Origin: a virus
Direction: 5' to 3' (one strand)
DNA length: 37,943 nt
Virus record (IMG/VR): IMGVR_UViG_3300019776_000558
Span: 1-37,943 of that record
Within the stretch, counting starts at the first letter, position 1. Each line of letters begins with the position of its first letter. The position numbers and the translations under genes are program-made. Shown here in pieces: positions 6,690-29,006 of the stretch. The notes below the pieces were generated by a model that had not been told where the DNA came from, made no database searches, and was given only the letters and a program-made list of their open reading frames with translations.

Positions 6690-6728
6690 AAGATGAGGGT
6701 GCCAGGATGACAGGATTTGTCCCGAATT
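6690..6728 (-). promoter_or_regulatory. Two-block late element, copy 1 (AATTCGGGAC-N23-CATCTT)
   Basis: Read on the minus strand, AATTCGGGAC (6728-6719) is followed by exactly 23 bases and CATCTT (6695-6690). It lies between the tail-fibre stop and the start at 6656. The same two blocks with the same spacing occur at 12542-12580, 23577-23615 and, with CACCTT, at 28968-29006. All are in the same orientation relative to late transcription. Confidence 0.7.
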
Positions 6729-6731
6729 ACC

Positions 6732-9149
6732 TCATGATCCCTCGAACCAATTGGTACCATCCGACCAGTAGGTCTTTGTCCCGGTCACCGTCTGGCCAGC
6801 AACCCCTCCACCGCCGTTCTTTGGATAAAGAGTCCCTGACTGCACAAGCACTGTCGTCGGGGTGTTGGGGTTGTTCCCGATGTTCCCGACGAATACGACG
6901 AACCCTCCAATCGCCACAGTCGGGAGCTTGACGTAGGTAGCCACTCCGGCTTGGCCTTGGATGATGTTGATCCCATAGATGGCGACTGGCGCGGCACCTG
7001 ATGTCGACGACGCAGAGAGAGTCGTCTTCTGAAAGGTTGCTCCCGAATTTCCGATGGCCAGCTTGTCGACAGTCAAGGAGTATCCGGATGGAATGCTCGC
7101 ATTGTTGTTGATCGTGAGAGGGACGTTGATCTGTGCAGACAAGCCACCAAAAAACGCGATGTCCGTCCAGGTGTTGATGCCGGCATTGTTGTTCCGAATA
7201 TGGACGCCCTTGCTCGTGGCCGCATTGAGATAGAGCTCGCCGTCGGCGCTGTGGAGCATCCCATAGGTGGTGCCCCCGTACATCGCCGAGTTGGACAGTT
7301 CTGCGAGCATTGTACCGAGTGCCCATTGTCCGAGCTTCCAATTTCCGAACACTCCCAGATTTACGCCCACGACCGTACCTGTCGCGGTAACGCTGGCCGC
7401 AGTCACTCCTCCGGAGAACGCCGCACTGGTTCCGTTGAACGGCACGTATGCAGTAATCGAGTCATCCTGAATGATCATCCGGTTCTGACGAACATTGCTG
7501 GCGTCAGTCGTCTGAAAGTTCAGCTGGTTGGCGGCACTGAGGTACGTCTCTACGTTGTCCTTCGCCCACAGAATCGCAAAGTTCTGCCCGGTAGGAGTAA
7601 CCCCGGAGGGCCAGAAGCCTTCGTACGCCGAGTTGGTGGGATAGTCCTGGAACTTGAAAGGGACGCTGGTGATCGTGCTCCACGCCTGTGTGTGGGACTC
7701 CGGCGTGAACGTACCGGGTACCCCTGTCAGGTTTCCCCAGGGGACCGTACCCGTGACCAAGGCACCTGCGGCGGTCCACTTCAGCCGCCAGCCTCCATTG
7801 TCGTAGAAACCGAAGTCTGAGGAGGCCCCTCCTGAAATCAACAACCGGCGTCGGTCTGGATCAGACCATTCAATACCGTGCCAGCTACCTACGATTGTGG
7901 CACCCAACTTAATGTTGCCGTGCGCTTGAGGCTGAGTGACCTCCGCGAGACCAGTAGGCACCCCGGTCAGTCCGGATATCCAGGCGTGCGTGTGTGCGGT
8001 TGGCGTGCGGGCATCAGATAGCCTTGAGTCGTTGCCTTGGCAGACAGTCCCCGCAGTGGTGCCGTAGCTGATGACTCCGGAAATGTCGGCCCAGGCCATC
8101 GCGCTCGCGGTCCAGGTGTCCGCAGCGGTGCGCCGGACGAATCCGGTGGTGGCCAGATTGGAAATCGCCGTGAGGTCCGCATCGAGCGGCTGGTACACCC
8201 CGGCGTGGTTGTGCTCATTCCGGGTGCCAGTCAGATTCCCCGTGTGCCAGATCGTCTTCCACGGGTACCACGTCCCGTTGTCTCCCTTCCGCCGCCACCA
8301 CAGGCTGTTCGAATCCGAGCCGTAGGAGTCGGACGCGATCTGCATGGAACCGCCATTGTACCGCCCCAGCGTCTGCACGAAGGCGTAGTCGCCCGGACGG
8401 TTCGCTGCCGTGTTCTGGGTGTACCCGCTCTGGAGGTTCGTGAGCGTGTTCGGATCAACCGTCCCAGCCATATTTGCGATCGTGCTCTCGAGAGCGTAGT
8501 AGCTCGGAAGCTGGCCGCCAAGTTTCGCGGAATCGGCGGAGGATCCGGAGATCGCGATCGGCCAGGTGGAACCGAAGTCTGTCGAGTCAACCTGCAAGCG
8601 CAGCGCAGCACCGGCTGACCATCCGATATAAAGCTTGTTCGTGGTCTGGGAAGTACCACCTCCCTGCTGCACCGGCGTGAAGCCGAGACTCGCCTGCTTC
8701 CCGGCCAAGGCATCAGTGATCCACCCGCTTGCCGAGTCCACCACGCTCTGCGGATGCGTGGCTGGGTGAGTGTAGGGGGCGACCCAGGAACGCGCACCTG
8801 CGCTGGTGCTGGAGAGGAGGTAGCCGCTGGATCCGGGATTGCCCAGGGCAGCTTCCTTCCCTGCCAGCGCCGTCGTCAGCCCAGAGACATCCGCCTGCGG
8901 GATGGCCGAGACCACCGACCACGCCCCCGCCCCGGTGCGCTTGGCATAACCCGTGGACGACAAGCCGTCCAGGGCGGAGAGCTCGGCCGAGATGGGCTGG
9001 TAGGTGCTCGGGAGCGCGGCTTCCAGGGCAAGCACCTCAGCCGTCACCGCGGCCACTCCCGTGTCGATGTACTGGACATTCGCTGCGGAGAGGTCCGGGG
9101 AATCGGCGTAGTCGGTCCAGGTCTTGGCGATGTAGGCGGCTAGGCTCAT
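6732..9149 (-). CDS. Tail fibre with pyocin-knob-like domain, 805 aa
   Basis: The ATG at 9149 overlaps the tip-protein stop (ATGA). The N-terminus (SLAAYIAKTWTDYADSP) probably attaches to the tail tip. Two fibre-type repeats of the form S/T-T-G-(Y/F)-x-x-R-T-x-x-x-x-W occur. A pyocin-knob-like segment follows around residues 265-330 (ANRPGDYAF, then WWRRKGDNGTWYPWKTIWHTGNL). The C-terminal half is Gly/Thr-rich beta structure ending in TYWSDGTNWFEGS. It is the likely receptor-binding fibre, made trimeric in the virion. Confidence 0.85.
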   Translation of the reverse strand: MSLAAYIAKTWTDYADSPDLSAANVQYIDTGVAAVTAEVLALEAALPSTYQPISAELSALDGLSSTGYAKRTGAGAWSVVSAIPQADVSGLTTALAGKEAALGNPGSSGYLLSSTSAGARSWVAPYTHPATHPQSVVDSASGWITDALAGKQASLGFTPVQQGGGTSQTTNKLYIGWSAGAALRLQVDSTDFGSTWPIAISGSSADSAKLGGQLPSYYALESTIANMAGTVDPNTLTNLQSGYTQNTAANRPGDYAFVQTLGRYNGGSMQIASDSYGSDSNSLWWRRKGDNGTWYPWKTIWHTGNLTGTRNEHNHAGVYQPLDADLTAISNLATTGFVRRTAADTWTASAMAWADISGVISYGTTAGTVCQGNDSRLSDARTPTAHTHAWISGLTGVPTGLAEVTQPQAHGNIKLGATIVGSWHGIEWSDPDRRRLLISGGASSDFGFYDNGGWRLKWTAAGALVTGTVPWGNLTGVPGTFTPESHTQAWSTITSVPFKFQDYPTNSAYEGFWPSGVTPTGQNFAILWAKDNVETYLSAANQLNFQTTDASNVRQNRMIIQDDSITAYVPFNGTSAAFSGGVTAASVTATGTVVGVNLGVFGNWKLGQWALGTMLAELSNSAMYGGTTYGMLHSADGELYLNAATSKGVHIRNNNAGINTWTDIAFFGGLSAQINVPLTINNNASIPSGYSLTVDKLAIGNSGATFQKTTLSASSTSGAAPVAIYGINIIQGQAGVATYVKLPTVAIGGFVVFVGNIGNNPNTPTTVLVQSGTLYPKNGGGGVAGQTVTGTKTYWSDGTNWFEGS

Positions 9150-12100
9150 GCGGGGATCTCCACGGAATAGACGGTCACGGCGGCCGGGTCCTCGGTGGGG
9201 CACGGGAAACGCCAGTAGCAGGTGCGGCCCTCACTGCCCGGAGGCAGGGGCCACTGGAAAGCGTCATTGGTCACGGCGCCCACCCGGGACAAGATCGGGT
9301 GCGGGCCGCAGGTGGTGCCATAGAGGCCACGCCGTAGGACGGAGCACTGGGCCACCTGCCCGTCGTCGCTCTCGGTCGCGTAGGCCATCAGCTCGCCATC
9401 CACCCACAGCAGGGCGCCGGGGTTGCCTGCCAGGTAGTCGTTCCACATCGGCCAGGGCGGCACGATGCTCTCGCCAAAGTCGGCCAAGCCGTAGTCTGCC
9501 ACGCCCACGCGCAGGCCAGGATGCACCCTCTGCCCAGGGCGCACGCGCAGCCGGTCCATCGCCTGGATCAAGTGCCCCGTGGGAGACTGCTTGGCGCACG
9601 TCCCGACCGACTCCCAGGTGATGCCGTCCCAGCTCTGCTGCACGGAGCACCCACGCCATCCGACACCGCCCGAGAGCAGGATCCACACCTGGAGCAGGCC
9701 GCCGATCAGGGCCACGAAGATGATCGGCAGGTTCACGGGGCTGGCAACGGTGATGCCCCCGGAGGTTCCCGCGCCCGAGGCTCCCGGAGGTGCGATGGCG
9801 GAGGAGGACACCACCACGTCCTCGGCTTCCATCTCGATCCAGTCGGCAGGGGCTTCGCTCTTGCGCAGGATCCGCACCGGCCGGGAGGGGATCAGCCCAT
9901 CCCCGATGGTCACGATGTCCCCCGGCTCCAGGAGCATGTACCGCTGGCTCACAGCAAAGGAGTACGTGCGCCCGGTTCGCTGGTGGTGTCGCAGGCGCAG
10001 CCAGGCGCAGGTCATGGCCACCTGGGCGTTGGTGATCCAGTTCCAGTCGCAGGGGGATGCCTCGATCACGCCCATGCGCGAGGCCGCTCCCTCGTCCTGG
10101 ATCGTGGTCGGCTCGTCGGAGTAGTTGCGGGCCCGGTTCTTCCACGTGACGGTGAGGCGGTTCCAGCGTTCATCGGCGCCGATCACCTCCACGGAGATGC
10201 CGTCCCGCAGGTGCCCGGCCGGGATGACCATGCAGGGCGCCGCGTGCTCGGGCTTGGGCGTGTAGGTCACCCCGTTTGCCGTGATGGTGGCCGTCTCCCG
10301 CACCAAGACCTTGATGAGGCCTTCGGAGCGATAGGGCACGGAGTTGGCACTCTCCAGGATGTCGCAGACCAGTGGCCACGCCGCCTGCTGGCTGGTCAAG
10401 AGCAGGGAGAAGCGAATCCCCATGGCGGTGCAGTAGTTGTCGAAGATGGCCCAGGTCACCGGGTCGAAGGTGAGATCGCGGAGGTTGAGGCCGCGCACCG
10501 GGTCGCCAGTGAGGAGACGCTTGCAGATCACCGAGGGGAGGAGGTCGCCGCTTCCGTTGGTCGTCACGATCTCCCGGATGCCGCACTCCGGGGTGCTGTT
10601 CGGGAGGCTCGCGTCGTTCTCCTCGTTCTCGCGCCAGATCCCCAGGGCCATGCCATTGAGGGCTTGGAACTGGTAGCCCACCGAGTTGTTGCCGCCCGAG
10701 CTGGGAGCGTAGGTCAGCCACGGCGTCACGGCCTTGGTGGACGTGCTCACGGCGCGCACCTCGAGCGAGGGGCTGGACCAGCATTCCCAGAAGGTGCCCT
10801 TCACCACCGAGGCCGGCTTCCCGTAGGCGACGAAGATCTGGCCGTTCCCGTTGTGGAAGGCGTTGGCAAGAAGCCCCGGTGCGGTAGTCGTGGTCAGCTC
10901 GGTGCGGGCGGCGTCCCAGGTGATCGAGCTTGCGCCAATGGTCCCCCAGGCGATGCGCCAGGCGCCCCACGGGAGGCGGTCGGGATAGGTCAGCGGCGTG
11001 CACTTGGCATCGTTGGCTCCCTCGTTCCCGGGAGCGTAGGCAAGGCCGCCATATCCCCAGTATGCGGTATTGGGGTACCACAGCGGGGCGTGGTTGTAGA
11101 GGACCGCGAAGGTGGTGGCCGTGAGGCCCATGATCTGGGTGCTGCCCTCGTTGCGGTAGTCGTACCCGTCGTTCGGCACCCACCCGAGGGAGACGCCGGC
11201 ATACCCGTTGAGGTTGAGCCACGGCAGGGAGACGACGTTGGAGTGCGGCTCGGTGTCGCCGGAGACCAGGTTGAAGGCGGCCGCGGGGAGATCCCACCGC
11301 ACCAGGGTGTCGGCCTTGATGGGGACGGCGAAGAGCTGGCATTGGGCCGTGCCGACTGGGACGTAGACGCAGGAGAGGATTGCCTTCCCGGAACCGAGAG
11401 GGAAGATGGAGGGGGCGCGAACGAGATTACTTTCCATCGCCCCGGTAAGCAGTGCATTTGAATCCGCAATGCACAATTCGCCTTTTCTGCCCGGCCCAGG
11501 GAAAAGCGTTCTATCCGTCAGATCAGGAATCACCCACACTGTTGTCGAGATTGCAGTGGACGGTAAATATCCAACAACCACGCCAACTGTCTGATTCAGG
11601 TGCGGTCGAGGATTCGCAATCTGATTCCGCTTCTGGCAGGAGACCCAAACCTCCCCGCTGGAATGCAGGGCGATTTGCAATCGCTGGACTCCGGCTGCAT
11701 TCGCCTTCGTCTGAGGTACCAGGCTTTGCCCGAAGGTCCATGTCGTGCCGCTGTCCGTGCTCCAGGCGTGAACGATCTGCACCGGCTCCGAGGCCTGATC
11801 CAGGCGGGACCAGACCACATGCACCAGATTGCCCACCGCCGCGATGCGAGGCTGAGGGACAGCACCGGAGGCCGGTAGGTAGGAAGCATTCACCGAGGCG
11901 CTGCACACGGTCACAGGAGCCGACCACGCCCCCGTCCCGGTGCGAGACATCAGGACTATCGTGCTGGTCTGTGCACTCCACGCCAGCAGGTAAGTCTTGG
12001 CCGTGGCCCCGCTCCCGGTGACGCATGCCGCCATGTCGGTGGCGATCTTCGGTTGCCCCGCCACCGTCTCCCCGGTGTCGTTGTTCTGGGTGAAGGGGAC

Positions 12101-12535
12101 GGGGAAGATGTAGTTGCCATCCGCGCCCGAGAGCGTGAGGTCCGAGGAACCCTCGAAGGAAAGGCTTCCGGGCGAAGAGGTCGTATCGTTCGGAGCCGTC
12201 ACGCCCACCCACGGGAAAGGGTCGGTCGCGTGCGCCTTGGCGGAGTCCGTGGCGCCCATGTCGACCGTCTGGCCCTTGTCGGCAAACTGCTTGCCGATGG
12301 ACTTGAGCGGCCCCTCGCACATGCCGTACCGGATCGCCTTCGGGGAGCTCACACTCAACCCTGCCTTGGAGGCTGTCCGCTCGTCCCAGATGACGGTGGT
12401 CGGGACTCTGTGCTGCCCGATCAGGAGCGGGACCGGCGTCCCATAGGCGGCGGTCGTGACCGGGCGGTAGAAGTCGCTGGCCCGGCGGGATTCTGGGATG
12501 GCGGTCGGGCGCTGGGCACGGCGTGAAAGGTCCAT
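9146..12535 (-). CDS. Tail tip/host-specificity protein with inserted sialidase-like beta-propeller, 1129 aa
   Basis: The N-terminus (YGTPVPLLIGQHRVPTTVIW, about residues 31-50) and the region from about 655 onward match the tip/central-fibre proteins found after DUF2163 hubs (GTA gp15/gpJ-like). Between about 135 and 655 lies a long insertion of beta-strand-rich sequence containing a canonical Asp-box (S-T-D-S-G-T-T-W, residues 259-266) after an HVVWSRLD strand. That is the signature of sialidase/BNR-type propellers. The insertion probably displays a glycan-binding or glycan-cleaving domain at the tail tip. The gene begins 6 bases after one of the late elements. Confidence 0.8.
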   Translation of the reverse strand: MDLSRRAQRPTAIPESRRASDFYRPVTTAAYGTPVPLLIGQHRVPTTVIWDERTASKAGLSVSSPKAIRYGMCEGPLKSIGKQFADKGQTVDMGATDSAKAHATDPFPWVGVTAPNDTTSSPGSLSFEGSSDLTLSGADGNYIFPVPFTQNNDTGETVAGQPKIATDMAACVTGSGATAKTYLLAWSAQTSTIVLMSRTGTGAWSAPVTVCSASVNASYLPASGAVPQPRIAAVGNLVHVVWSRLDQASEPVQIVHAWSTDSGTTWTFGQSLVPQTKANAAGVQRLQIALHSSGEVWVSCQKRNQIANPRPHLNQTVGVVVGYLPSTAISTTVWVIPDLTDRTLFPGPGRKGELCIADSNALLTGAMESNLVRAPSIFPLGSGKAILSCVYVPVGTAQCQLFAVPIKADTLVRWDLPAAAFNLVSGDTEPHSNVVSLPWLNLNGYAGVSLGWVPNDGYDYRNEGSTQIMGLTATTFAVLYNHAPLWYPNTAYWGYGGLAYAPGNEGANDAKCTPLTYPDRLPWGAWRIAWGTIGASSITWDAARTELTTTTAPGLLANAFHNGNGQIFVAYGKPASVVKGTFWECWSSPSLEVRAVSTSTKAVTPWLTYAPSSGGNNSVGYQFQALNGMALGIWRENEENDASLPNSTPECGIREIVTTNGSGDLLPSVICKRLLTGDPVRGLNLRDLTFDPVTWAIFDNYCTAMGIRFSLLLTSQQAAWPLVCDILESANSVPYRSEGLIKVLVRETATITANGVTYTPKPEHAAPCMVIPAGHLRDGISVEVIGADERWNRLTVTWKNRARNYSDEPTTIQDEGAASRMGVIEASPCDWNWITNAQVAMTCAWLRLRHHQRTGRTYSFAVSQRYMLLEPGDIVTIGDGLIPSRPVRILRKSEAPADWIEMEAEDVVVSSSAIAPPGASGAGTSGGITVASPVNLPIIFVALIGGLLQVWILLSGGVGWRGCSVQQSWDGITWESVGTCAKQSPTGHLIQAMDRLRVRPGQRVHPGLRVGVADYGLADFGESIVPPWPMWNDYLAGNPGALLWVDGELMAYATESDDGQVAQCSVLRRGLYGTTCGPHPILSRVGAVTNDAFQWPLPPGSEGRTCYWRFPCPTEDPAAVTVYSVEIPA

Positions 12536-12541
12536 GCCCCG

Positions 12542-12580
12542 AAGATGATCCCCCTACGCGCGCGCGGGGAGTCCTGAATT
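12542..12580 (-). promoter_or_regulatory. Two-block late element, copy 2 (AATTCAGGAC-N23-CATCTT)
   Basis: On the minus strand AATTCAGGAC (12580-12571), 23 bases, then CATCTT (12547-12542), 6 bases before the tip-protein ATG. The 23-base spacer contains CCCC-GCGCGCGCGTA-GGGG, a possible hairpin. The TAA stop of the upstream lipoprotein gene overlaps the first bases of the element. Confidence 0.75.
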
Positions 12581-12980
12581 AGGGAGCTTTGCAGTAGACT
12601 TGGATGGTATCGACGGAATATTTCCCCGATCCCTGGGCGGCGATCATGTATTTAATGTTGTTTTTCCCTGCACATCCGACTTTGACAGTCGAATCTCCTG
12701 ACGCATTGTGCTGGAAAATAATCGTAGTCGAACCGTCAACTATGGAATACAAAGAATCTCCGATTCCTGATCCAGCGATATTCACACTTTCCTTATACCA
12801 CCACTGTACCTTCACGGTGGGTGAATCCACCGGAGCGGCCTTGGTCCCGGTGAGCACGGTCACGGAAAGGCGGGGCGCATCCGGAGGGCCGGGAATGGTA
12901 TCCGTGGGCGCGGTCGTGGCGGTGTCGTCGCAGGCGACCAGGGCAAAGGCGAGGGCGAAGAGGGCGAGTAGGTGGCGCAT
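12579..12980 (-). CDS. Putative lipoprotein, 133 aa, moron-like
   Basis: The N-terminus MRHLLALFALAFALVAC is a bacterial lipoprotein signal with a lipobox LVAC at residues 14-17. An acidic/Thr/Pro linker follows, then a beta-rich domain of about 100 residues with two Cys (VGCAGKN and QVYCKAP) that may form a disulphide. It is probably exported and anchored in the outer membrane. Such lipoproteins in tail regions of temperate phages often block superinfection or receptors, but that role is inferred. The middle of the gene is A/T-richer than its neighbours. Confidence 0.7.
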   Translation of the reverse strand: MRHLLALFALAFALVACDDTATTAPTDTIPGPPDAPRLSVTVLTGTKAAPVDSPTVKVQWWYKESVNIAGSGIGDSLYSIVDGSTTIIFQHNASGDSTVKVGCAGKNNIKYMIAAQGSGKYSVDTIQVYCKAP

Positions 12981-12989
12981 GGGGTTCCT

Positions 12990-13367
12990 TTACTTCGCAG
13001 TGACGATTGTTACGACGATCCCAGCCAATACCAATGCGGTCTGCAACCACAATGCCGTGGCGATATTGTTCTGAGCACGAGCGGCTGATTCCTGCGCCTT
13101 CACAGAACGCTCTTCCAGCGATTCATTCTGCACTTCCGAAGATCCGGAACTGCGCGGGATATTCGGGTATCTCGCTGGCACCTTTTCAACGGCAGGTGAT
13201 TTCACATCCTTGGAATCCATCTGGTAGATTCTTCCGGCACGAATCTCATTCAGGCATTCGCTCTGGGCAGGCTCGACAAGGTTGTAGCACTCCTGGCGAT
13301 TCCTGATTTCGACAGGTTCGGCAGAGGCAAGTCCGGCGGCAAGGGCAAGGAACATGGACAGGCGCAT
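12990..13367 (-). CDS. Exported protein with signal peptide and C-terminal TM, 125 aa
   Basis: The ATG at 13367 gives a signal peptide (MRLSMFLALAAGLASA). A periplasmic region follows with two Cys close together (RQECYNLVEPAQSECLNEI), then a polar/coiled middle, and a hydrophobic segment at about residues 103-123. I do not recognise a family. Together with the adjacent lipoprotein it looks like a lysogenic-conversion or exclusion pair inserted between the hub and tip genes. Confidence 0.6.
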   Translation of the reverse strand: MRLSMFLALAAGLASAEPVEIRNRQECYNLVEPAQSECLNEIRAGRIYQMDSKDVKSPAVEKVPARYPNIPRSSGSSEVQNESLEERSVKAQESAARAQNNIATALWLQTALVLAGIVVTIVTAK

Positions 13368-13424
13368 GGTGGGCTCCGGTGGGTGGTCCCCCAAGTCTAC
13401 ATCCTGGGGGTGCGTGGTGCAAAC

Positions 13425-14243: not shown

Positions 14244-14332
14244 GCTCTACCTCAACGAAAAAGCTCTGCACGAGGTACCGGGTAGAAGTCACCAACCTTG
14301 CGGCGGTGGACCGGATTCGTACAGAGCTGGTG

Positions 14333-14350: not shown

Positions 14351-14423
14351 AGCCTCATTTCGTTGCACCCGGACTTCTACCTCCAAGCGCGTTCCCTGAA
14401 GGTACCTCCCGGCGCGGGGGAAG

Positions 14424-14621: not shown

Positions 14622-15703
14622 GCGCTCTCCGGCTCCGGCATGTCGGGGAAGCCGCCGAAGCCTGACTTGATGTCGCCTGGTGCGCCTCCCCACGTATCAT
14701 TCCTGACATCCCAGGTCGCGCAGGCCATCGCACTTGTCTCCAAGTCCCCCTGCGTCAGGGTTTTGCTGCACGCCAGTTCTATGTGGGCTGTGGTGCAGCT
14801 CCATGACCAAGGAAGCGTGTCTGCGAGCTCGCAGGTGTAGCCATCGATCCGGTTGCCCAGCTGGAAGCGCATCCCCATCATAGGCCCATCCTGTGGGACG
14901 ATGAAGGTCCATGGAAACGCATCTGCCGACTGGAACTGGATCCAGCCGGGATACGGAAAGCTCACCGCACTGCCCTGGATCTTCTTGTGCGTATTCGCCT
15001 TCCCTGAGACGATCCCATCTCCCCACAGCGTCTTCACCATGGGGCACCCCACGCCCTGGCTTGCCCCACTCGCGAACTCCCAACGACAGAGCGGGGAGAA
15101 CAGGTTGCGGGGCACGCTCCCGCCACCCTGGATCAGGACATCGCACGCATCGAACTCCACCGACTGGCTGCTTGGCTTGGCCCCACGGATCACCCCATCG
15201 AAGACCCGCACCGGGTCGGGAGTCAGCACGCCGTAGCCCGCGCCGGCCGCCACAGGGGTGGCAGGAAGCTCCTGCACCACCGCCTGATCGATGGCCAGCC
15301 GGGAGCCGTCCAGCATGCCCAGGAGAGCCAGCTCCATCAGAGATGTGGCAAAGCTCCCGCTCCCGTCCTGCGCCGTTGCGAGGTAGATGGGGAGTGTACC
15401 CGCCACGCTCATGGAGATCTGGAGCACCTCAGCACCGAGGGAGCCTTGCAGGCTGCCCCGCTGGTAGGCGACTCCCTGAAGCGGCTGGTACACCTGACCG
15501 CCGTCCTTGGCCGTGGCACTGGTGCGCAGGGCGCGCGGCGCACTGGTCCACCGCACCGAGTCCTCGATCTCCTTGACCCCGATGAAGACGCCGTTCCCGT
15601 CGAACTGGTGACACCGCCCGCGTCGAATGGTGAGGGTCACTAGGTCCACGACCATGGCGCGTCCGGTCCCCAGCACGGCCTCCACGCCCGCCGCCGCGAT
15701 CAT
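14618..15703 (-). CDS. Tail hub protein (DUF2163 / phage BR0599 family), 361 aa
   Basis: Between the distal tail protein and the tip gene, this protein fits the DUF2163/BR0599 hub family of GTA-like tails. The N-terminal half has the expected beta pattern. The C-terminal half has LFSPLCRWEF and QGVGCPMVK (Cys206 and Cys220), followed by Cys303 and Cys312. The four Cys are the likely ligands of the Fe-S cluster seen in lambda gpL and the GTA hub. The start at 15703 overlaps the previous stop (ATGA). Confidence 0.8.
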   Translation of the reverse strand: MIAAAGVEAVLGTGRAMVVDLVTLTIRRGRCHQFDGNGVFIGVKEIEDSVRWTSAPRALRTSATAKDGGQVYQPLQGVAYQRGSLQGSLGAEVLQISMSVAGTLPIYLATAQDGSGSFATSLMELALLGMLDGSRLAIDQAVVQELPATPVAAGAGYGVLTPDPVRVFDGVIRGAKPSSQSVEFDACDVLIQGGGSVPRNLFSPLCRWEFASGASQGVGCPMVKTLWGDGIVSGKANTHKKIQGSAVSFPYPGWIQFQSADAFPWTFIVPQDGPMMGMRFQLGNRIDGYTCELADTLPWSWSCTTAHIELACSKTLTQGDLETSAMACATWDVRNDTWGGAPGDIKSGFGGFPDMPEPESA

Positions 15704-16386
15704 TCGAACACCTGCTCAAGCTCGATGCCGTCACCCTCGAGCATCGCCCAGGCCAACCACTTGACCGAGAAAGAATCGGTGGCCAGCCGCACCCGGTAGG
15801 CGAACTCGAAGTCGGCCGTCACAGGAAGGCCTGACCCGGGCGCCGTGGCGAAGGTGGCGAGCGCCCCACCAGTGATGCCATCGAAGGCCGTGAAGTTGCA
15901 GGACTGTGCGCCTCCGGAGACCTTCCCGACCGGCGCGAAGTTGCGGGTATCAACCCACTGCACAGGCTCGGCCGCGCGGCCATATGGGAAGGTCTGCGTA
16001 CCGAAGGGGCGCACCAGGGGGAAGACCTTCTGCACGCCGTCCCCGATGCCGATTTGCACCCCCGTGAGGCGGCAGAAAGCGCCCTTGCCGGCCTTGCTGA
16101 TCTGGTAGGCATCCTCGGTGGGGCAGAACAGGAACGAGTCCTGCATGCCGCCCCTGGACATGAAGAACCCGGCCAGCGTCTTGAAGGCGGCAAGCTGGGC
16201 ATCGTCGCGCAGCATCGGCAACTTGATCGACCACTTCCACCGCGGGGCCGCCCATAGGGAGACCCGGAACTCCGAACCACCCTGGCCCCGCTGAACCTGC
16301 GTCGACCACTGGGCCTCCCGGCTCTCGATCACCCAGGGAATCTCCCGGGACAGCCCGTCCAGGACTGGGAAGAATACGTTGCTCAT
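15700..16386 (-). CDS. Distal tail protein (DUF2460, GTA gp12-like), 228 aa
   Basis: The protein has the DUF2460 shape: an N-terminal FFPVLDGLSREI..VIESREAQ segment, WKWSIKLPML, then LAGFFMSRGGMQDSFLFCPTEDA, the last being the conserved loop that describes the data-rich strand of the family. Length and order (tape measure, DUF2460, DUF2163) match GTA-like siphophage tails. It forms the ring at the end of the tail tube. ATGA overlaps occur on both sides. Confidence 0.85.
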   Translation of the reverse strand: MSNVFFPVLDGLSREIPWVIESREAQWSTQVQRGQGGSEFRVSLWAAPRWKWSIKLPMLRDDAQLAAFKTLAGFFMSRGGMQDSFLFCPTEDAYQISKAGKGAFCRLTGVQIGIGDGVQKVFPLVRPFGTQTFPYGRAAEPVQWVDTRNFAPVGKVSGGAQSCNFTAFDGITGGALATFATAPGSGLPVTADFEFAYRVRLATDSFSVKWLAWAMLEGDGIELEQVFE

Positions 16387-20009: not shown

Positions 20010-20011
20010 GT

Positions 20012-20212: not shown

Positions 20213-20215
20213 GGT

Positions 20216-20716
20216 TCAGCCCTTGTTCAGTTGGATGGTGATCTGGCTCCCCACGACTGGCCAGTAGCTGCCGTCGGTGGGGTCGATGGACTTGATGGAG
20301 GCGCGGAAAGGGCCTCCCAGGATAGGGGTGAGATCGCGGGCCGGGGTGAAGTACCTGCGGGCCGCTGCCAGCACCGCCGACTCCATAGCGCCCAGGGCAT
20401 CCCAAGCGCCCTTGGCAGACAACTGCGCATCGCGGGGGCCGGTGCTCTGGGCACAGCACACGATGTCGAACTCCACCGAGGCGGGAAGCCAATCGAATCG
20501 CCACCCGGTAAGGGGCTGCGCTCCTTCCTGGCCTCGGCACAGGCGGATGCACGGAGCGGGAAGAGCAGGCGTGATGCCTTGCGCCACATCCACCACGGGC
20601 ACGCCGCCTACGGTCTTGGAGACGATGGCAGAGACACCAGCATCGGCCTTGAGGAACGCCTCGAAGTCGTCCAGGAGGGCCGACCACGCGGAGGGCTTGT
20701 CGTACTGGTCAGCCAC
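20216..20716 (-). CDS. Putative tail terminator/completion protein, 166 aa
   Basis: The start is a GTG at 20716, overlapping the previous gene by eight bases. The sequence has a helix, then strands with a central FDIVCCAQ and a final SQITIQLNKG, consistent with the gpU/DUF3168-like tail terminator fold. It lies two genes before the tail tube, where the terminator that caps the tail is normally found. Fold assignment is by pattern and position. Confidence 0.6.
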   Translation of the reverse strand: MADQYDKPSAWSALLDDFEAFLKADAGVSAIVSKTVGGVPVVDVAQGITPALPAPCIRLCRGQEGAQPLTGWRFDWLPASVEFDIVCCAQSTGPRDAQLSAKGAWDALGAMESAVLAAARRYFTPARDLTPILGGPFRASIKSIDPTDGSYWPVVGSQITIQLNKG

Positions 20717-21092
20717 GGTAGAGCCTCGGGCAGAGGTTGGAAGGGGTCTGCGCGGCGTCCTCGGTGGTGCCGCTCCAGTCGGCAGCGCCCAGGGTCGGCA
20801 GAAGGGCGTTCTGCATGTCCTGGTAGGCCTTGAGCTTGATGGCGAAGGCGTCCTTGCCGTCCGACCCGAAGCCGTGCTGGTTCTGCCCCATCTCGCCCAG
20901 GCAGATGAAGATCGCCAGTTGGTAGACCGCCGCGCGCTTGGCCCGGTTGCCCAGGGTCGCGAGGATGTCCGCCTCGATTACGCCTACAGCTTCGGCCTGC
21001 TCGACGATCCACGCCTCCACATCCGCCAAGTAGGTTGGGGCGTATGGCTGCAGGAGGGCGTCGTGCAGGTCGGTGGAAACGAGGTGGCTCAT
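20709..21092 (-). CDS. Putative head-tail connector protein, 127 aa
   Basis: ATG at 21092 overlapping the previous stop (ATGA). Mostly helical sequence (YLADVEAWIVEQAEAVGVIE, AAVYQLAIFICLGE), then a Gly-containing loop and a polar tail. Size, helical character and position between the coat gene and tail terminator suggest an adaptor or connector protein. I cannot assign a named family with certainty. Confidence 0.55.
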   Translation of the reverse strand: MSHLVSTDLHDALLQPYAPTYLADVEAWIVEQAEAVGVIEADILATLGNRAKRAAVYQLAIFICLGEMGQNQHGFGSDGKDAFAIKLKAYQDMQNALLPTLGAADWSGTTEDAAQTPSNLCPRLYRG

Positions 21093-21562: not shown

Positions 21563-21714
21563 GCGCCCTCGGCCTTGGGCGCTTCGGCCTTCACAGCTTT
21601 GTAGCCCTTGGCCTCCCAGTCCTTGACGGCATCGGGGGCCACTAGGGCGATGTCGTCGCCATCCTTGCCCTTCTGCAGCTTGACGGGTTCGATGAACTCG
21701 GGGGTGAATGCCAT
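21559..21714 (-). CDS. Small 51-aa protein after the coat gene
   Basis: An ATG at 21714 with GAAAGGAAA upstream opens a 51-codon frame whose TGA (21561-21559) overlaps the next start as ATGA. The protein is Lys/Ala-rich with FTPEFIEPVKLQKGKDGDD at the N-terminus and a polar, Lys/Ala/Pro-rich tail. Small head genes at this place often encode decoration or completion proteins. It resembles no family I can name. Confidence 0.65.
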   Translation of the reverse strand: MAFTPEFIEPVKLQKGKDGDDIALVAPDAVKDWEAKGYKAVKAEAPKAEGA

Positions 21715-21739
21715 GTCGTTTCCTTTCAGTGAAGGTTGA

Positions 21740-22870: not shown

Positions 22871-22876
22871 GATGAA

Positions 22877-23554
22877 TTACTCCTGGGAGATGATGGCCTT
22901 GCCGGATGCGACATCGCTGATGAGTGCCACGTTCTTGGCGCCCACTGCAGCATCGTATTCAGCCTGCGTGATGATCCTGGCACCAGCCGGGACGTTGGAA
23001 GGGCCGCCGCCACCAGGGCCACGGGGTTGGGTGGAGGAGACTAGTTCGGGGCGTTCCTTGAGCCATTTCCCCACGTACTCGTCCACGGTACGCTCGGCAC
23101 CGAAGGCGTCAACGAAGTAGGGCGAACCATCCTCGCGGAACTTGACCGAGGCCATGTGGATCCCGGCCAGGTCGTCGGGGCGCAGCGCCTTGCCCTTCGA
23201 GAGGGCATCCTTGATGGCCGCCTGGGCCTTCGAGGAACGAGCCGAGGTCTCGGCATCTGTGCGCAGCTTGCGCTCGTTCTCCAGTTCACCTTCGACCCGC
23301 TTGAGACGGGCCTCCAGCTCCGGATCAACCTTCCCCTTCGACTGGGTGGACTTGGACCGGTGAGCCTCCAGGGCTCCATCCAGGTCTTCCGTCGCGGGAT
23401 CGATGCCCAGGTACTCGCCAAGGGACTTCGCCCGGGTGCGGTACTTGGCCGCCTCCCTGTTAAGCTCGGTCTCCCTGGCCTTCACCACGGCAACGAATTC
23501 GGAACCACCCTCCAGGCCATCCAGGGCCTTGAGGGCATCAGCGAAAGTCGGCAT
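22877..23554 (-). CDS. Scaffolding protein, 225 aa
   Basis: The ATG at 23554 has AAGGAG seven bases upstream. The protein is strongly charged and helical with a coiled coil (LEARLKRVEGELENERKLR), then a Gly/Pro-rich hinge (PRGPGGGGPSNVPAG) and a short C-terminal domain likely to bind the coat protein. Position directly before the coat gene and this layout mark it as the internal scaffold. It follows one of the two-block late elements. Confidence 0.8.
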   Translation of the reverse strand: MPTFADALKALDGLEGGSEFVAVVKARETELNREAAKYRTRAKSLGEYLGIDPATEDLDGALEAHRSKSTQSKGKVDPELEARLKRVEGELENERKLRTDAETSARSSKAQAAIKDALSKGKALRPDDLAGIHMASVKFREDGSPYFVDAFGAERTVDEYVGKWLKERPELVSSTQPRGPGGGGPSNVPAGARIITQAEYDAAVGAKNVALISDVASGKAIISQE

Positions 23555-23576
23555 ATCGGGTCTCCTTCATGCCCAG

Positions 23577-23615
23577 AAGATGGGGGCACGAAGGTCTCCG
23601 AAAATGTCCTGAATT
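23577..23615 (-). promoter_or_regulatory. Two-block late element, copy 3 (AATTCAGGAC-N23-CATCTT)
   Basis: On the minus strand AATTCAGGAC (23615-23606), exactly 23 bases, CATCTT (23582-23577), then 22 bases to the scaffold ATG. The CATCTT lies in the loop of a TGCCC/GGGCA hairpin. The TAA of the upstream 71-aa gene forms the 5' edge of the element. Confidence 0.75.
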
Positions 23616-23829
23616 ACTTCGCCGGGAAGAGCATTCCGAAGAGGGCAGAGTCAGCCGCAGGGCTCATGCGGAACTGGATCCCACGATCTCCGTTGATCGG
23701 TTTCCGGTGGTCAGATCGTCCCTCGATGATCTTGCTTGGGACGCCATCAGGGAACGCCGAACACTTCCAGCCTTCACCTTCGAAGGCATGCTCACAGAAG
23801 TAACACATCGGTGGGTATTGACTGCTCAT
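23614..23829 (-). CDS. Conserved-type CxxC phage protein, 71 aa
   Basis: ATG at 23829, overlapping the MuF stop (ATGA). It has CYFCEH (Cys9, Cys12), then KCSAFPDGVPSKI with Cys23 and a His, and later NGDRGIQF. The pattern C-x2-C ... C-x-A-F-P-D-G-(I/V)-P ... G-D-x-G-I-x-F recurs in small phage head-module proteins. It probably binds a metal. Its role in the virion or packaging is unknown. Confidence 0.65.
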   Translation of the reverse strand: MSSQYPPMCYFCEHAFEGEGWKCSAFPDGVPSKIIEGRSDHRKPINGDRGIQFRMSPAADSALFGMLFPAK

Positions 23830-25808
23830 GGTGTCCCGTTCAGCTTGAAGATACGCCTCTTGAGCCCTTCTGCAAACTCTCTCGCCACTCCGGACCCAAA
23901 TGCCTCTGCCCAGCCCTCAGCAATCCCTTCCGTGATGCCACCCTTCTCGGCATATCCGGAAACCGCCTGGGCCACTCCTCGCGCTCTCGCTTCGTTCCAC
24001 AACTTGATGACCTCAGTATCCGAACGCAACCCAAGGAGCGCGTCAATCTGGTGCCCAAGTTCATGCGCCACGGTTCCTTCTACTCCCACGACCTTGCCTG
24101 CAGCAGACCACTTCCCTTGACCCGTGGAAAGCTCATCCATGGCAAGGGTCTTCTCGTAGGTCTTCCCGTAGAAATCGGCGTTGAAAGAAATGCCATGGAA
24201 GCCATTGTACCGCTTCACCCTCGAGTCCGCAGAGAAAGCCTTCGTGCGATTACTGATGTCGCCCCAGAAGGCCTTCCGGATCGAGGCCTCGGAGTAGTTC
24301 TCAGCCTTGCGAGCAGCCTTAGCCAGCTTGACGTGCTCCTGCGACGACCCAACGAACTGCAGGCCACTCCGAAGATCTGGGAACATGTCTAGATGCTCCT
24401 TGAGGACCTTGTTGATCCCGTTCGCCGCGTCGATGTGGAGCCCCTTGTAGCTCACGTGATCCGCCAGTTTGTTGTCCCGAGCCCATTGCTCAGCTTCTTT
24501 GATAGACTTCGCGGGGATGAACTCCACGACTTTTCGAACGGGGTGTGCAGCCTTCTCTTGAACCACCTTCGCCGCGCCGCTGGCCACGGGCGCCGCCACG
24601 CCAGGCACCAGCTGGAGATCCGGTTGCCACTTCTTCACGCCCATGACCACGGCACGAGCCCCCGGGGACATCCCGGATGACACCGCACCGTCATAGTGCC
24701 GAAGGTCACCCTTCCAGCTTGCCCCGCCCTTGAAGCCTTGCGCTCCCTTGATGGTCAGCAGTCGCTTGCGCTGACTCTCGGTCATGCCGTTCAACGCCGC
24801 CTTGCCGCCGGCCTCCACGTTGTCGCGCTCGGCAGGAACCATCCCCACGAAAACCTTGCTCTGCGGGCAGTGGCAGTGCGGGTGCGCCGGGTAACGGGGC
24901 CACTTGGCCTTCGGGTACACGCCGGGGCCCATGCCGTAAAGATCCGCCGTGTGGTTGAAGTCGCAGATGTCGAAGACCTTGTGCGAGGTGGAGAGGTTCC
25001 ACTTGATGCCCACCACGTCGGGATCGTCCATGCACTGGGCATGGAAGCCCTGCCCCCAGGCGCGGGCCGCTTCGGTGCGCTGGATGCGGGAAGCGTGATA
25101 TCGGGCCTTCTCCTCGGTGGCGGTCTGCACCAGGCGGTCGAGGCCCTTGGTCAGCCCCTTCTCGAGCCTGTCGGCCATCTGCCCGTAAGCGGCCCGGAGT
25201 GGCCCCGTGGCCAGGCGGTCGGCATAGGCCCGCAGGCGCTTGGCGTCCTGCTGGAGCTGGGCGAAATCCTCGGGCGTGAGCACCTTCCGGGCCTGGTCGG
25301 CAAGGTCCTGCAGGTCCTTCGGAAGTTCCGAGAGCTTGGCCTGCTTGATCGCCCCGCCGAAGCCGTAGCCGTCGTAGATCCGGCGCTGGGTGTCCCAGGT
25401 GCTGGCCTTGGCGTCCACGCCGTCCTTGATCGCCTTCACGATCTCGGCGCGCATGGCCTGGTCCGTGCCGTGCAGGCGCGTCGAGAGGGTCATCCCGCTG
25501 TCGTCCCACACGCTGGAAAGGGCTGTCGCCTTGAGCCCAGCGAAGGCCTCGGACGGAGCTGCCGAGACGGAAGGCCAGATGCCGTATCCCACGCACACGG
25601 ACTGGACCACGGCGGTCGCCACGGTATCCCGGACGGCCTGCGCCATGCCCACCGCCTCCATCCCTGATCGAACCGCCTGCTCCGGGTCCTCCCCGTTCGC
25701 GACAGCAGCAGCCACGGCGCGGGCGACCTGGGCGGCCAGGCGCACCGTCCGGGCACTCTGTCCAGCCAAGAGCCGGTCCAGCTCCTTCCGCGCGGCGGCG
25801 TCATCCAT
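23826..25808 (-). CDS. MuF-type head morphogenesis protein fused to a zincin-like peptidase, 660 aa
   Basis: Residues about 1-320 form the Mu gpF-like minor head protein: RTEAARA at 244-250, SHKVFDICDF at 275-284 and the terminal HPHCHC cluster at 309-314. The extra C-terminal half (about 420-660) ends in a zincin motif HELGH (582-586) followed by EGIAEGWAEAF (627-637), whose Glu can be the third zinc ligand. MuF proteins of temperate phages often carry C-terminal effector domains delivered or used with the capsid. The start overlaps the portal stop by one base (TGATG). Confidence 0.8.
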   Translation of the reverse strand: MDDAAARKELDRLLAGQSARTVRLAAQVARAVAAAVANGEDPEQAVRSGMEAVGMAQAVRDTVATAVVQSVCVGYGIWPSVSAAPSEAFAGLKATALSSVWDDSGMTLSTRLHGTDQAMRAEIVKAIKDGVDAKASTWDTQRRIYDGYGFGGAIKQAKLSELPKDLQDLADQARKVLTPEDFAQLQQDAKRLRAYADRLATGPLRAAYGQMADRLEKGLTKGLDRLVQTATEEKARYHASRIQRTEAARAWGQGFHAQCMDDPDVVGIKWNLSTSHKVFDICDFNHTADLYGMGPGVYPKAKWPRYPAHPHCHCPQSKVFVGMVPAERDNVEAGGKAALNGMTESQRKRLLTIKGAQGFKGGASWKGDLRHYDGAVSSGMSPGARAVVMGVKKWQPDLQLVPGVAAPVASGAAKVVQEKAAHPVRKVVEFIPAKSIKEAEQWARDNKLADHVSYKGLHIDAANGINKVLKEHLDMFPDLRSGLQFVGSSQEHVKLAKAARKAENYSEASIRKAFWGDISNRTKAFSADSRVKRYNGFHGISFNADFYGKTYEKTLAMDELSTGQGKWSAAGKVVGVEGTVAHELGHQIDALLGLRSDTEVIKLWNEARARGVAQAVSGYAEKGGITEGIAEGWAEAFGSGVAREFAEGLKRRIFKLNGTP

Positions 25809-27238
25809 CAGGCGGCGGAGTTCCCGTCAGCGGTGGTCTGGTCCTGCACCTGGCCGTCCTGCGAGGGAGGGGTATTCGTGGCATCGATTGCCGCCTGATC
25901 CAGGGCGTCCCGCAGCTCCTCCAGGCGTTCCTGGTCGTCTTCCAGCAGGATCGCCCCGATGCGCTCCAGGAGCCCGGCGCGCAAGGGCTCGGGCATCCCC
26001 TGGGCAAGCGTGGTGAAGGCGTCCATCAGGGGCTGGAGCATGGCCGACTCGTCCTGGAGGACGAAGTCCCGAGGGTAGCCCACCGAGTACTCCAGCGTCT
26101 CGTTCGTCCACCAGGACCACAGCGCAGCCACCTGCATCTCGGCCTTCTCCAACGTGGCGGCAAAGTCTCCCAGGGCAGTGTCCAGCGCCTCGCGATCGAT
26201 GCGCAGCGCAACGCCCGACATCACCGTCTGGACCTGCTGCGGGCTAGTTGTCCCCGTCTGGTGGGTCAGCAGCGCCATGCGGTAGATCTCACGCACCAGG
26301 CGGTCGATCTGCTCCATCAGGAGCTTGGCGGGGCCGTCCGGGGGCGCGATGAATGCCGGGGCGTGCTTCCCCTCCCCATCGAAACCCAGGGCGTTGTTCA
26401 CGCCGATGGTCAAACCCTCCAGGTTCTTGGCCGGGTAGAGCAGGATGGAGAAGGTCTGCGCACGGAACATCTCATCCAGCTCGCTGCAGAGGTTGAAGAG
26501 CCGGTGGCAGGCGCGGGCAATGGAGACGAACCCCGAGCGCGGAAGCTTGACGCCGCGCACCTTGGCCCCCGTGCAGATCTCGACCACAGGCGCGGTGGGG
26601 TACGCCTTGGGGAATTCTCCCGACTCCAGGGCCTCCCCCTTGTCGTTGGCCACGCTCCACCCCGAAGGCGTGAGGGTGCGGATCACAGGCCGATCCTCCC
26701 CTTCCCGGCTCTCCAGGTGGGAGATGGAGACCACGCGACCGAACCGGTCCCGCTTGAGGTCCACCACGTCCAGGGCCTCGACCCGGTAGATGTAGGGCTT
26801 GATCTTCAAGGCCTGGGCGCGGTTGGCCGGGGCGACCTCGGGCGCCGTGACCACTTGCCAGCACGCACCGTCCCGCTTGGCCGGCATGGCGGCCTCCCGC
26901 ATCACCTGGGCAAGGGAAGAACCTGCGCCGTCGGCATCTTCCGCGAAGGCGGCCCACAGTTCCTCCGCGCTCGAGGATACCACCTTACGCTCGGCTTCAC
27001 GCCGGAACAGCGGGGAAACGTGGGAGTCCACGACCGGGGCCATGTAGTTGAGGTAGTAGGCGACCTTGCGGCGGGCATTGTAGCTGTCCTCGTGCTCGCG
27101 CGGGTGCTTGACCAGGTAGGAGCCCACGCGGGTGTCCGCCTGGCCCTCGAGGGCGCCGTCCTGGGCGCCGAACTCGAAGCCACCGGTCCCGTAGTAGGAG
27201 TTGAAGAGCAATGGGAGGACGGTGGTTTCATTGGACAT
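25808..27238 (-). CDS. Portal protein, 476 aa
   Basis: The ATG at 27238 has a GGAGGT site formed by the end of the terminase gene. The protein has the size and order expected (large terminase, portal, MuF). Internal segments resemble DUF4055-type portals: YNARRKVAYYLNYMAPVVDS near the start, and ARACHRLFNLCSELDEMFRA, ALLTHQTGTTSPQQ and LEKAEMQVAALWSWW in the helical stem/wing region. It forms the dodecameric DNA gate and binds the terminase. Confidence 0.85.
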   Translation of the reverse strand: MSNETTVLPLLFNSYYGTGGFEFGAQDGALEGQADTRVGSYLVKHPREHEDSYNARRKVAYYLNYMAPVVDSHVSPLFRREAERKVVSSSAEELWAAFAEDADGAGSSLAQVMREAAMPAKRDGACWQVVTAPEVAPANRAQALKIKPYIYRVEALDVVDLKRDRFGRVVSISHLESREGEDRPVIRTLTPSGWSVANDKGEALESGEFPKAYPTAPVVEICTGAKVRGVKLPRSGFVSIARACHRLFNLCSELDEMFRAQTFSILLYPAKNLEGLTIGVNNALGFDGEGKHAPAFIAPPDGPAKLLMEQIDRLVREIYRMALLTHQTGTTSPQQVQTVMSGVALRIDREALDTALGDFAATLEKAEMQVAALWSWWTNETLEYSVGYPRDFVLQDESAMLQPLMDAFTTLAQGMPEPLRAGLLERIGAILLEDDQERLEELRDALDQAAIDATNTPPSQDGQVQDQTTADGNSAA

Positions 27239-27241
27239 GGA

Positions 27242-28471
27242 TTACCTCCGGATCTGCGCGGTGGTGGCTGCGGTCGGCTTGAACACGTTGAAGCACTCCC
27301 AGGCCGTCGAGCAGGCATCCACCTGGTCGTCGTGCTGGGTGCCGGGGAAGGACAGGAGCTCATCGAGGAAGGCGTCCGAGATGCCAGGCACCACGTGCAC
27401 CATGCCTTGCTCGAACCGGGCCGCAAGCGGGAAGAAGCGCGTGAGCTTGTCGCGCCCTCCCGGCTTGATGCCGCGCACCGGAAGCGTCGTGGTCCGCAGG
27501 AGCTCCTGCACCGCAGCGGCCTGGTACTGGACCTGCTCGATTCCGACCACGGAAGGAGACCAGCGCGAGGCCTCGGCCTGGATCATCTCCATGGACTCCC
27601 GGAACCCCATGCGGGCCCGGCGCACCGAGAGGATCCACACCTCCCCCGTCTGGCGATGCCGCCCCAGGGTCGCGACCGCCGTCCAGTCGGCCGTCTCCTT
27701 GGTTGAGATGGCGAGGTCCACGCCCACGACGATTTCCAGCTGGGAAAGCGGCGGAGGCTGGGTGAAGCGCAGCTGAGAGCGCTTGACCAGACCACCCTCG
27801 AAGTCGACGAACTCGGCCAGGTACTCCTGCCGGAAGACCAGCTCAGGGAGCTCCAGACGTGCAGCCTCGATCTCGTCCGGGGATAGGTAGGGGTTCGTGA
27901 CGCTGGGCATCCGCCACGACATCCATTCCCCCGAGTCCTGTTGCCCGCGGTCGAACAGCTCCCGAAAGAACGCTGCGCCGTCGTGCAGCGCCCTGGGCTT
28001 GGGTGTAGACGGGAACCAGGCGTCTCCCTGATAGTCCGAGAGGGTTGGGCGGATGGACTGCTCCCAAAGGGATCGCAGCTTGGGAACCATCGCCGCCTCA
28101 TCGATCACGACCCTTCGGTATGCACGGGATCGGGCTGGATCCGGAATGTCGAGCGTCCAGAACTCCAGAACGCCGCCGGTGATGAGCTCCAGCCGTTTCT
28201 GCTGGCTGTCCCGCCGTCGAGTCACAGGCGCCAAAGCCCTCTCCACGCGGCTCCAGGTCTCGTCGAGGATCTTGTAAGTCGGAGCGAACCAACCAACCGG
28301 GAAGCCCTCCAGAGCGGGCTGGGCGAACTCCCAGGTGCAGAACGCCGTCTTGCCGAACCGGCGCCCCAGGCAGGGGAGGTTGAACCGCCTCCGCTCTGCA
28401 TGGAGGATCTTCTGTCCATCATGCCAGACGGGAGGGCGAACCTTGATGCGGCGCTTACTGGCGACGGCCAA
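27242..28471 (-). CDS. Terminase large subunit, 409 aa
   Basis: The ATPase half has Walker A LGRRFGKT (35-42) and Walker B VVIDEAA (121-127). The nuclease half has the first Asp in VVGVDLAIS (Asp252), Glu312 in GIEQVQ and a HDDQVDA cluster (381-385). These are the RNase-H-like nuclease residues of large terminases. It pumps and cuts phage DNA. The start is a TTG at 28471 with GGGGGGA upstream; it overlaps the small subunit by 17 bases. No better ATG exists in frame. Confidence 0.92.
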   Translation of the reverse strand: MAVASKRRIKVRPPVWHDGQKILHAERRRFNLPCLGRRFGKTAFCTWEFAQPALEGFPVGWFAPTYKILDETWSRVERALAPVTRRRDSQQKRLELITGGVLEFWTLDIPDPARSRAYRRVVIDEAAMVPKLRSLWEQSIRPTLSDYQGDAWFPSTPKPRALHDGAAFFRELFDRGQQDSGEWMSWRMPSVTNPYLSPDEIEAARLELPELVFRQEYLAEFVDFEGGLVKRSQLRFTQPPPLSQLEIVVGVDLAISTKETADWTAVATLGRHRQTGEVWILSVRRARMGFRESMEMIQAEASRWSPSVVGIEQVQYQAAAVQELLRTTTLPVRGIKPGGRDKLTRFFPLAARFEQGMVHVVPGISDAFLDELLSFPGTQHDDQVDACSTAWECFNVFKPTAATTAQIRR

Positions 28472-28961
28472 CGACGTCCCCCCACTCGATCACAACCTCG
28501 TCACCCTCATCCTCGCGCTCCTCGAACATGCCCAGGTGGCGCCCCAAAAGCTCGAGGGCCTTGACCTTGTCGAAGCGCTTGAGCTTGATCGACCCTCCGT
28601 GCTGGGTGACCGTCTGGGAGACCTCCGCCACCTGCGCTGCCTCGTCGTCGGTCAGGGTCTCCGAGTTGATCAAGTCCACCCCATTGGGGCCCCAGGTCAT
28701 CACCTTCCGAGGATCTCCGAAGGCGACTCGTGCGAGCTCCTGGAGGACTCGCTCCCGGGTGATCTGGGCCCCGAGTGCGCGGGTCTTGGTTGCCGAGGCG
28801 ACAGCTTCCTGAACCTTCGCATACGTGAGCAGTCGGCTTGCAACCTGCGTGGCTGCCTTCGGGCTGTAGCCGGCTCTGATTGCAGCTTGCGTTGCGTTGA
28901 GATCGATCAGGTACTCCTGAACGAACCTCTTCTGCTTGGGAGAAAGACCGGCCGCGACCAT
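28455..28961 (-). CDS. Terminase small subunit (Terminase_2/XtmA family), 168 aa
   Basis: The N-terminal part is a textbook Terminase_2 DNA-binding domain: LSPKQKRFVQEYLIDLNATQ (residues 6-25), then AAIRAGYSPKAA. The middle has ERVLQELARVAFGDPRKV and the end KALELLGRHLGMFEE. It recognises the packaging site and feeds DNA to the large subunit. It is the first gene of the late leftward arm and begins six bases after the proximal block of late element copy 4. Confidence 0.92.
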   Translation of the reverse strand: MVAAGLSPKQKRFVQEYLIDLNATQAAIRAGYSPKAATQVASRLLTYAKVQEAVASATKTRALGAQITRERVLQELARVAFGDPRKVMTWGPNGVDLINSETLTDDEAAQVAEVSQTVTQHGGSIKLKRFDKVKALELLGRHLGMFEEREDEGDEVVIEWGDVVGRRQ

Positions 28962-28967
28962 GAGGAG

Positions 28968-29006
28968 AAGGTGCCGAGGCGGGCGTTTCGAGTGATGTCC
29001 TGAATT
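28968..29006 (-). promoter_or_regulatory. Two-block late element, copy 4 (AATTCAGGAC-N23-CACCTT)
   Basis: On the minus strand AATTCAGGAC (29006-28997), exactly 23 bases, then CACCTT (28973-28968), one base different from the other copies, and six bases to the terminase ATG. This copy lies at the head of the entire late arm. Confidence 0.7.

Follow-up and report, generated by a model that had tools for sequence, protein, structure and literature searches.

What drives transcription of the late genes in IMGVR_UViG_3300019776_000558, an uncultured bacterial virus? The stretch of DNA analyzed here, referred to as the window, covers positions 1–37,943 of that record. A sequence-only reading had noticed four copies of a two-block element upstream of late genes, each consisting of a box (ATTCNGGAC in its conserved form) and a downstream hexamer (CATCTT or CACCTT), and had offered three explanations: a late promoter, a binding site for a regulator, or an RNA processing signal. 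Our comparison with related phages favors the late promoter, makes the regulator site probably one half of that promoter, and disfavors RNA processing. The copies are most likely phage late promoters with a weak -10 hexamer and an upstream box, and across the phage group the late messenger RNAs made from such sites would mostly be leaderless.

All four copies are exact, all lie on the minus (late) strand, and the spacer between the blocks is 23 bp in each, as first described. Predicted late promoter 1 (28968–29006) has the box AATTCAGGAC at 28997–29006 and the hexamer CACCTT at 28968–28973, and precedes the small-terminase gene (terS; 28455–28961; phrog_51, E 1.9e-40), the first gene of late unit 1. 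Predicted late promoter 2 (23577–23615; AATTCAGGAC, 23 bp, CATCTT) precedes the scaffold gene that opens late unit 2 (22877–23554; a weak family match, phrog_194, E 3.7e-4). Predicted late promoter 3 (12542–12580; AATTCAGGAC, 23 bp, CATCTT) precedes the tail tip or J-like gene that opens late unit 3 (9146–12535; phrog_1101, E 6.7e-22; phrog_31, E 2e-8). Predicted late promoter 4 (6690–6728; AATTCGGGAC, 23 bp, CATCTT) precedes an 81-aa gene (6411–6656; no family match above the cut-off) that opens late unit 4 and is followed by an amidase gene (5186–5842). All four genes are on the minus strand. The copies would drive the gene sets for packaging, head, tail tip, and lysis. Their distances from the gene starts agree with the earlier account: 6 bases for small terminase, 22 for scaffold, 6 for the tip, and 33 for the 81-aa gene. 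The assertion that the copies are always noncoding holds nearly, the outer two bases of the box overlapping the stop codon of the preceding open reading frame (ORF) at 12579–12580 and 23614–23615. Their number exceeds the chance expectation: five window places match at up to three mismatches compared with 0.67 expected, chance produced three at most, and none of 100 shuffles reached five. The pattern read backwards had no window match at up to two mismatches.

The motif, its spacing, and its position before late genes are conserved in related phages. Uncultured relatives recruited by their large terminase, portal, and capsid were G001 (L005; 34.3 kb), G002 (L006; 29.8 kb), L007 (6.2 kb), L050 (14.5 kb), and L068 (4.3 kb). 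The portal alignment led to 39 loci and the capsid alignment to 17; the terminase has matches in 1138 records of annotated phages and the capsid in 70, with identities below 60% throughout. A motif scan of the genome and its relatives, the check proposed with the original description, was run with the spacer left free and then with a weight matrix; it found the same design in G001, G002, L007, and L050, and gave a set of 18 sites in five records (4 in the window, 6 in G001, 5 in G002, 2 in L050, and 1 in L007) that omits a degenerate L068 scaffold site and a poor L050 terS site. All 18 are on the late strand. The two blocks are separated by 23 bp in the window, L007, and L050 and by 25 bp in the other two records, G001 and G002. 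Sites precede the small-terminase and tail-tip genes in the window, G001, and G002; the scaffold gene in the window, G001, G002, L050, and L007; a homologue of window gene 20709–21092 in G001, G002, and L050; and a 54-aa ORF in G001. In the window, G001, and G002 a site also precedes a small gene before the amidase gene. This small gene differs in G001 and G002 from that of the window, and the amidase of these two records is presumed from its sequence. Late promoters 1 and 3 have orthologous sites in G001 and G002, and the L050 counterpart of late promoter 1 is degenerate. The layout of late promoter 2 recurs in L007, the scaffold genes of G001, G002, and L050 look leaderless, and the L068 site is degenerate. 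At 8609–8865 of G001 (L053), two predicted promoters 216 bases apart flank the 54-aa ORF before the tip gene.

The sequence downstream of the hexamer points to the transcription start. Exactly six bases and then an A follow CATCTT or CACCTT in all four window copies: CATCTT-CGGGGC-ATG before the tip, CACCTT-CTCCTC-ATG before small terminase, CATCTT-CTGGGC-ATG at a point 16 bases 5' of the scaffold's own ATG, and CATCTT-GGTGGG-AGA at a point 27 bases 5' of the ATG of the 81-aa gene. Taking this A as +1 (28961, 23570, 12535, and 6683 for late promoters 1–4) puts CATCTT at -12 to -7, the place of a bacterial -10 element. ATG or GTG stands directly after CATCTT-N6 at 17 of the 18 sites, the exception being the window 81-aa gene; the frequency of RTG in the window is 0.031. 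The -10 consensus over the sites is CA[TC][CT]TT. A at -11 and T at -7, which the search favored, occur in 18 of 18; the purine present at every predicted +1 (18 of 18) was not favored by the search. The -1 base is a pyrimidine at 16 sites and C at 13, in agreement with the preference for C at -1 reported for Mycobacterium tuberculosis start sites (PMC4633059). The converse search, for CA[TC][CT]TT-N6-RTG with no box required, found 19 places in the five records, of which 17 are preceded by the box with the spacer typical of their record; the two box-less matches are both in the window, at 17073 (plus strand) and 10796 (minus strand). We infer the start site, the promoter activity, and the late timing: CATCTT would be a weak -10 element of a late promoter, and transcription would start six bases after it at an A that is mostly the first base of the start codon.

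A message whose +1 is the first base of its start codon is leaderless. The predicted +1 coincides with the likely start codon of the gene, exactly 12 bp 3' of the start of the -10 element, at 15 of the 18 sites, including the A of the small-terminase ATG (28961) and the A of the tail-tip ATG (12535). The number is 15 because two of the 17 ATG or GTG codons are not the start of the gene: in the scaffold sites of the window and L007, the ATG after CATCTT-N6 opens a short frame and the scaffold's own ATG follows AAGGAG. At 11 of the 15 sites, the ORF contains no earlier start codon. A signal resembling a -10 element roughly 12 bp 5' of the start codon is a published mark of leaderless bacterial genes (PMC3160421), and phage transcripts are described as often leaderless in general (PMC5312081).

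Shine-Dalgarno pairing largely follows the same division. The three sites with a leader have strong pairing (-8.8 for the window scaffold, -10.8 for the window 81-aa gene, and -8.8 for the L007 scaffold). In the window, the 16-nt leader before the scaffold ATG (23554) contains AAGGAG and the 27-nt leader before the 81-aa gene ATG (6656) contains CAGGAGG. The median is -1.7 for the leaderless starts (n = 15) and -6.4 for other starts (n = 37), a comparison set picked by hand from which 37 of 38 were usable. The fixed six-base gap to the ATG and the weak pairing seen in 13 of the 15 leaderless cases would also suit a translation signal, in which CATCTT substitutes for the Shine-Dalgarno sequence. 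Yet CATCTT lies 22–33 bases from the start of the window scaffold, window 81-aa, and L007 scaffold genes, which have a normal Shine-Dalgarno sequence instead, and a translation signal leaves the box at a fixed 23 or 25 unexplained. We give this explanation only a very slight chance. The short frame of the window scaffold site occupies 23538–23570 (minus strand), runs from the predicted start of the scaffold message as ATG AAG GAG ... TGA, and overlaps the scaffold start out of frame; its sequence ATGAAGGAG is also present in L007 and L068.

The second component is the conserved box ATTCNGGAC, which spans roughly positions -45 to -36 and lies two bases farther upstream in the spacer-25 phages. 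The view that 23 bases is not a sigma-70 spacing was upheld. A TTGACA-like -35 hexamer 16–18 bp upstream had a best match of 1–4 of 6 bases with a mean of 2.56 at the 18 sites compared with 2.25 at random places, and the TG of an extended -10 element precedes the hexamer at none of the 18. One unusual sigma factor, of the host or the phage, could read both blocks across a 23–25-bp spacer with no separate activator; the strong conservation of both blocks at a fixed distance and the failure to see a -35 or extended -10 element fit that idea. However, the spacer exceeds the 16–18 bp of sigma-70 (the range scanned) by 5–9 bp and shifts by 2 bp between relatives, and the subset of window ORFs scanned against Pfam contained no sigma-like gene. 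A sigma factor of this kind is unlikely. A box 23 or 25 bp from the -10 element is beyond the usual sigma contact and suits an activator just upstream of the -35 region. We infer more weakly than the start site that such an activator acts at the box: ATTCNGGAC would most likely be bound by a phage-encoded or phage-recruited activator, which would bring the host RNA polymerase to the weak -10 element late in infection.

A candidate for this regulator is a protein resembling ribbon-helix-helix proteins (29510–29809, plus strand), encoded divergently from terS and upstream of the integrase. Homologues occur in G001, G002, and L050, so that all four records covering the place have one; a profile of the copies in the window, G001, and L050 recovered that of G002 at E 8.6e-24. 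The family scores of the window protein are weak only. Ribbon-helix-helix proteins are often repressors, so an activator role for this one is a guess, and we regard it as one candidate among several early genes. As regards a phage-encoded single-subunit RNA polymerase, the large ORFs of the window covered by the scan are structural or encode a VapE-like helicase/primase, the large late ORFs 16383–18644 and 6732–9203 falling outside it. In the early regions, sigma-70 scans detected no excess: 0 and 2 sites compared with 0.9 and 1.8 in shuffles. Between small terminase and the ribbon-helix-helix-like gene, the window (29011–29353) contains a cluster of direct and inverted TAGGGACAG / TGTCCCTA repeats that may serve as operators or in replication; different repeats seem to occupy this place in G001 and G002.

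The position before genes and the fixed spacing would also fit RNA processing or an RNA-binding operator ahead of the late genes. The seven of the 18 sites that were folded had no notable structure (z -0.25 to 1.78), which disfavors this explanation. Between records, the spacers show no sequence conservation, and the window had no Rfam match. We regard the explanation as extremely improbable.

Matrix scans tested how well the element separates from background. A matrix built from relatives only (14 training sites, 11 of them with spacer 25) and run on the window over spacers 12–33 ranked the four copies as the top four window places (27.5, 27.5, 24.9, and 21.3 bits). In the loosest control, 100 random sequences scanned over the same spacers, the best score averaged 18.2 bits with a maximum of 24.7, so the window sites at 21.3 and 21.1 bits (the latter a fifth copy described below) are unexceptional by this measure. 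With the spacer fixed at 23, 200 second-order Markov sequences gave a mean of 0.035 matches at or above 18 bits and 0.01 at or above 20 bits, using a matrix whose training set included window sites. A scan of whole records at their own spacers found, besides the 18, only the fifth window copy at or above 12 bits. Strict exact scans of 2.9 million viral contigs were also made. Spacer 25 returned G001 and G002 only, with seven matches. Spacer 23 returned L050 twice and L007 once, plus three contigs that lack window-like proteins (two with identical sequence). The spacer-24 control returned three AT-rich contigs, all without window-like proteins. Among the 53 loci scanned from L068 to L120, the full form was found only in L069, L070, and L105, all three of them repeat entries of the G001 and G002 contigs; single weak matches in L093, L094, L107, and L108 were judged to be chance. 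Absence from these loci is weak evidence because many are short fragments. As the full form has no match in the more distant loci, the element seems to mark one small phage group.

Several observations weigh against the promoter reading. CATCTT agrees with TATAAT at only three of six positions. The Shine-Dalgarno groups overlap: five of the 37 other starts are weaker than -3.2, and two of the 15 leaderless starts pair well (the window tip at -9.3 and the G001 scaffold at -5.8), probably because of G runs upstream of or near the -10 element. An internal ATG had to be chosen in four of the 15 (terS of G001 and G002, the L050 scaffold, and the G001 gene at 3200), where the longest ORF starts upstream. 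The 18 sites are orthologues in part, with G001 and G002 close to each other, and are non-independent yet counted singly. The spacer varies between records, and one activator geometry must accommodate both lengths. The activator itself was not found, the small early genes examined including no convincing transcription-factor family. L068, which is 77% identical over part of the portal, has only a degenerate GGAC-N24-CATGTT, and the poor L050 terS site is one base off. Other spacers from 10 to 40 yield seven more pairings at or above 18 bits in the five records. A laxer scan for spacer 23 with CAYCTT-N6-A matched 11 contigs, of which L007 was the only relative and the other ten had no window-like proteins, and at three mismatches a match occurs somewhere in 14 of 15 records scanned. 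The motif is therefore specific in its strict form only. The last point is the fifth copy, which violates the purine-start rule.

This possible fifth copy is weaker (30700–30738, minus strand; ATTTACGGAC, 23 bp, CATCTT; three mismatches; 21.1 bits). This copy is on the late strand, downstream of the integrase, and has no start codon; its predicted +1 is a C, and no counterpart site was found in the relatives. A possible small RNA from it (30602–30693, minus strand) ends, just past the integrase gene, in a GC-rich hairpin followed by the T-rich stretch CUUUCAUUUUU. The 92 bases from the predicted start fold at -40.2 kcal/mol (z -2.92; equaled by 3 of 200 shuffles) into three predicted hairpins with a terminator-like end. 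BLAST of this DNA against 134 loci, with the window's match to itself as the positive control, found no similar sequence, and the possible small RNA had no Rfam match. The fifth copy may drive a late small RNA, or it may be chance. More tentatively, the whole could be a new late-transcription system in which a phage factor reads ATTCNGGAC just 5' of the usual -35 region and redirects the polymerase to CATCTT, the late program is mostly translated from leaderless messages, the distance from factor to start has shifted in step at all sites of a lineage (23 in some, 25 in others), and the same promoter drives the late small RNA of the window. We consider this wider proposal possible but doubtful.

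The predicted promoters resemble several known systems in part. P2, a temperate phage that like its relatives has Ogr-type late promoters, is described as having four of them with a common upstream consensus, a phage activator, and late gene sets (PMC3931495). The P2 sequence is TGT-N12-ACA, which is found within 80 nt upstream at none of the 18 sites here, and a loose Ogr-like Cys pattern occurred in one of 1153 ORFs from the five records (partly fragments), an alternative-frame ORF over the late gene at 15700–16386 that is not convincing. Leaderless messages are not mentioned in the sections of the P2 account consulted (PMC3931495). The middle and late messages of the Thermus phage phiYS40 are reported to be mostly leaderless, but the relevant part of that report describes no two-block promoter (PMC3594737), and the capsid alignment did not connect our phage group with the phages of Thermus. 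In the Thermus phage P23-45, middle and late promoters are likewise independent of a -35 element, but they are described as an extended -10 class (PMC7403470), and TG before the -10 element is seen at none of our sites. T4 middle promoters, with a MotA box and AsiA, have an activator box in place of the -35 element and use the sigma-70 polymerase (PMC7403470); the box here is farther upstream. In leaderless bacterial genes, the match extends to the start of CATCTT 12 bp 5' of the start codon and to the A and T that CATCTT shares with TANNNT at positions 2 and 6, but the first base here is C rather than T, and a second upstream box is not described in the portion of that study used (PMC3160421). 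Phage late promoters that have an activator box upstream are a known kind, and leaderless phage messages are known as well (PMC3594737, PMC5312081). A narrow test of titles, limited to open-licence papers, found none on this motif. The sequence, the 23/25 spacing, and the tie to leaderless late messages look new.

A Thermaceae host is not claimed. The large terminase has one match in the genome collection, at 50%, in a metagenome-assembled genome with a Thermaceae title; among 111 genomes of its phylum, 11 match the terminase (three at 51–52% over most of the length) and only one matches the capsid, weakly, which is why the host was set aside. The large terminase (27242–28471) is 86–87% identical to those of G001 and G002 and the adjoining portal (25808–27238) about 43%, a mosaic. 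The first and last 100 bases of the window have common sequence and contain one and the same protein stretch, ...LLIERYIDGERERKQTDLFD, which suggests a circular or terminally redundant record. At 2697–4052 (plus strand) is a gene trio like a toxin-antitoxin-chaperone module, consisting of a Gp49-like member (weak, E 9.6e-4), a helix-turn-helix antitoxin-like member, and a SecB-like member slightly below the Pfam cut-off.

If the promoter reading is correct, transcription starts can be predicted exactly for the late genes of an uncultured phage group, and gene starts would be easier to fix where a message begins with its start codon. It would further link leaderless messages to a defined late promoter of a phage. 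It would also provide a natural promoter case in which all sites of one lineage differ in spacer from those of another by two bases.

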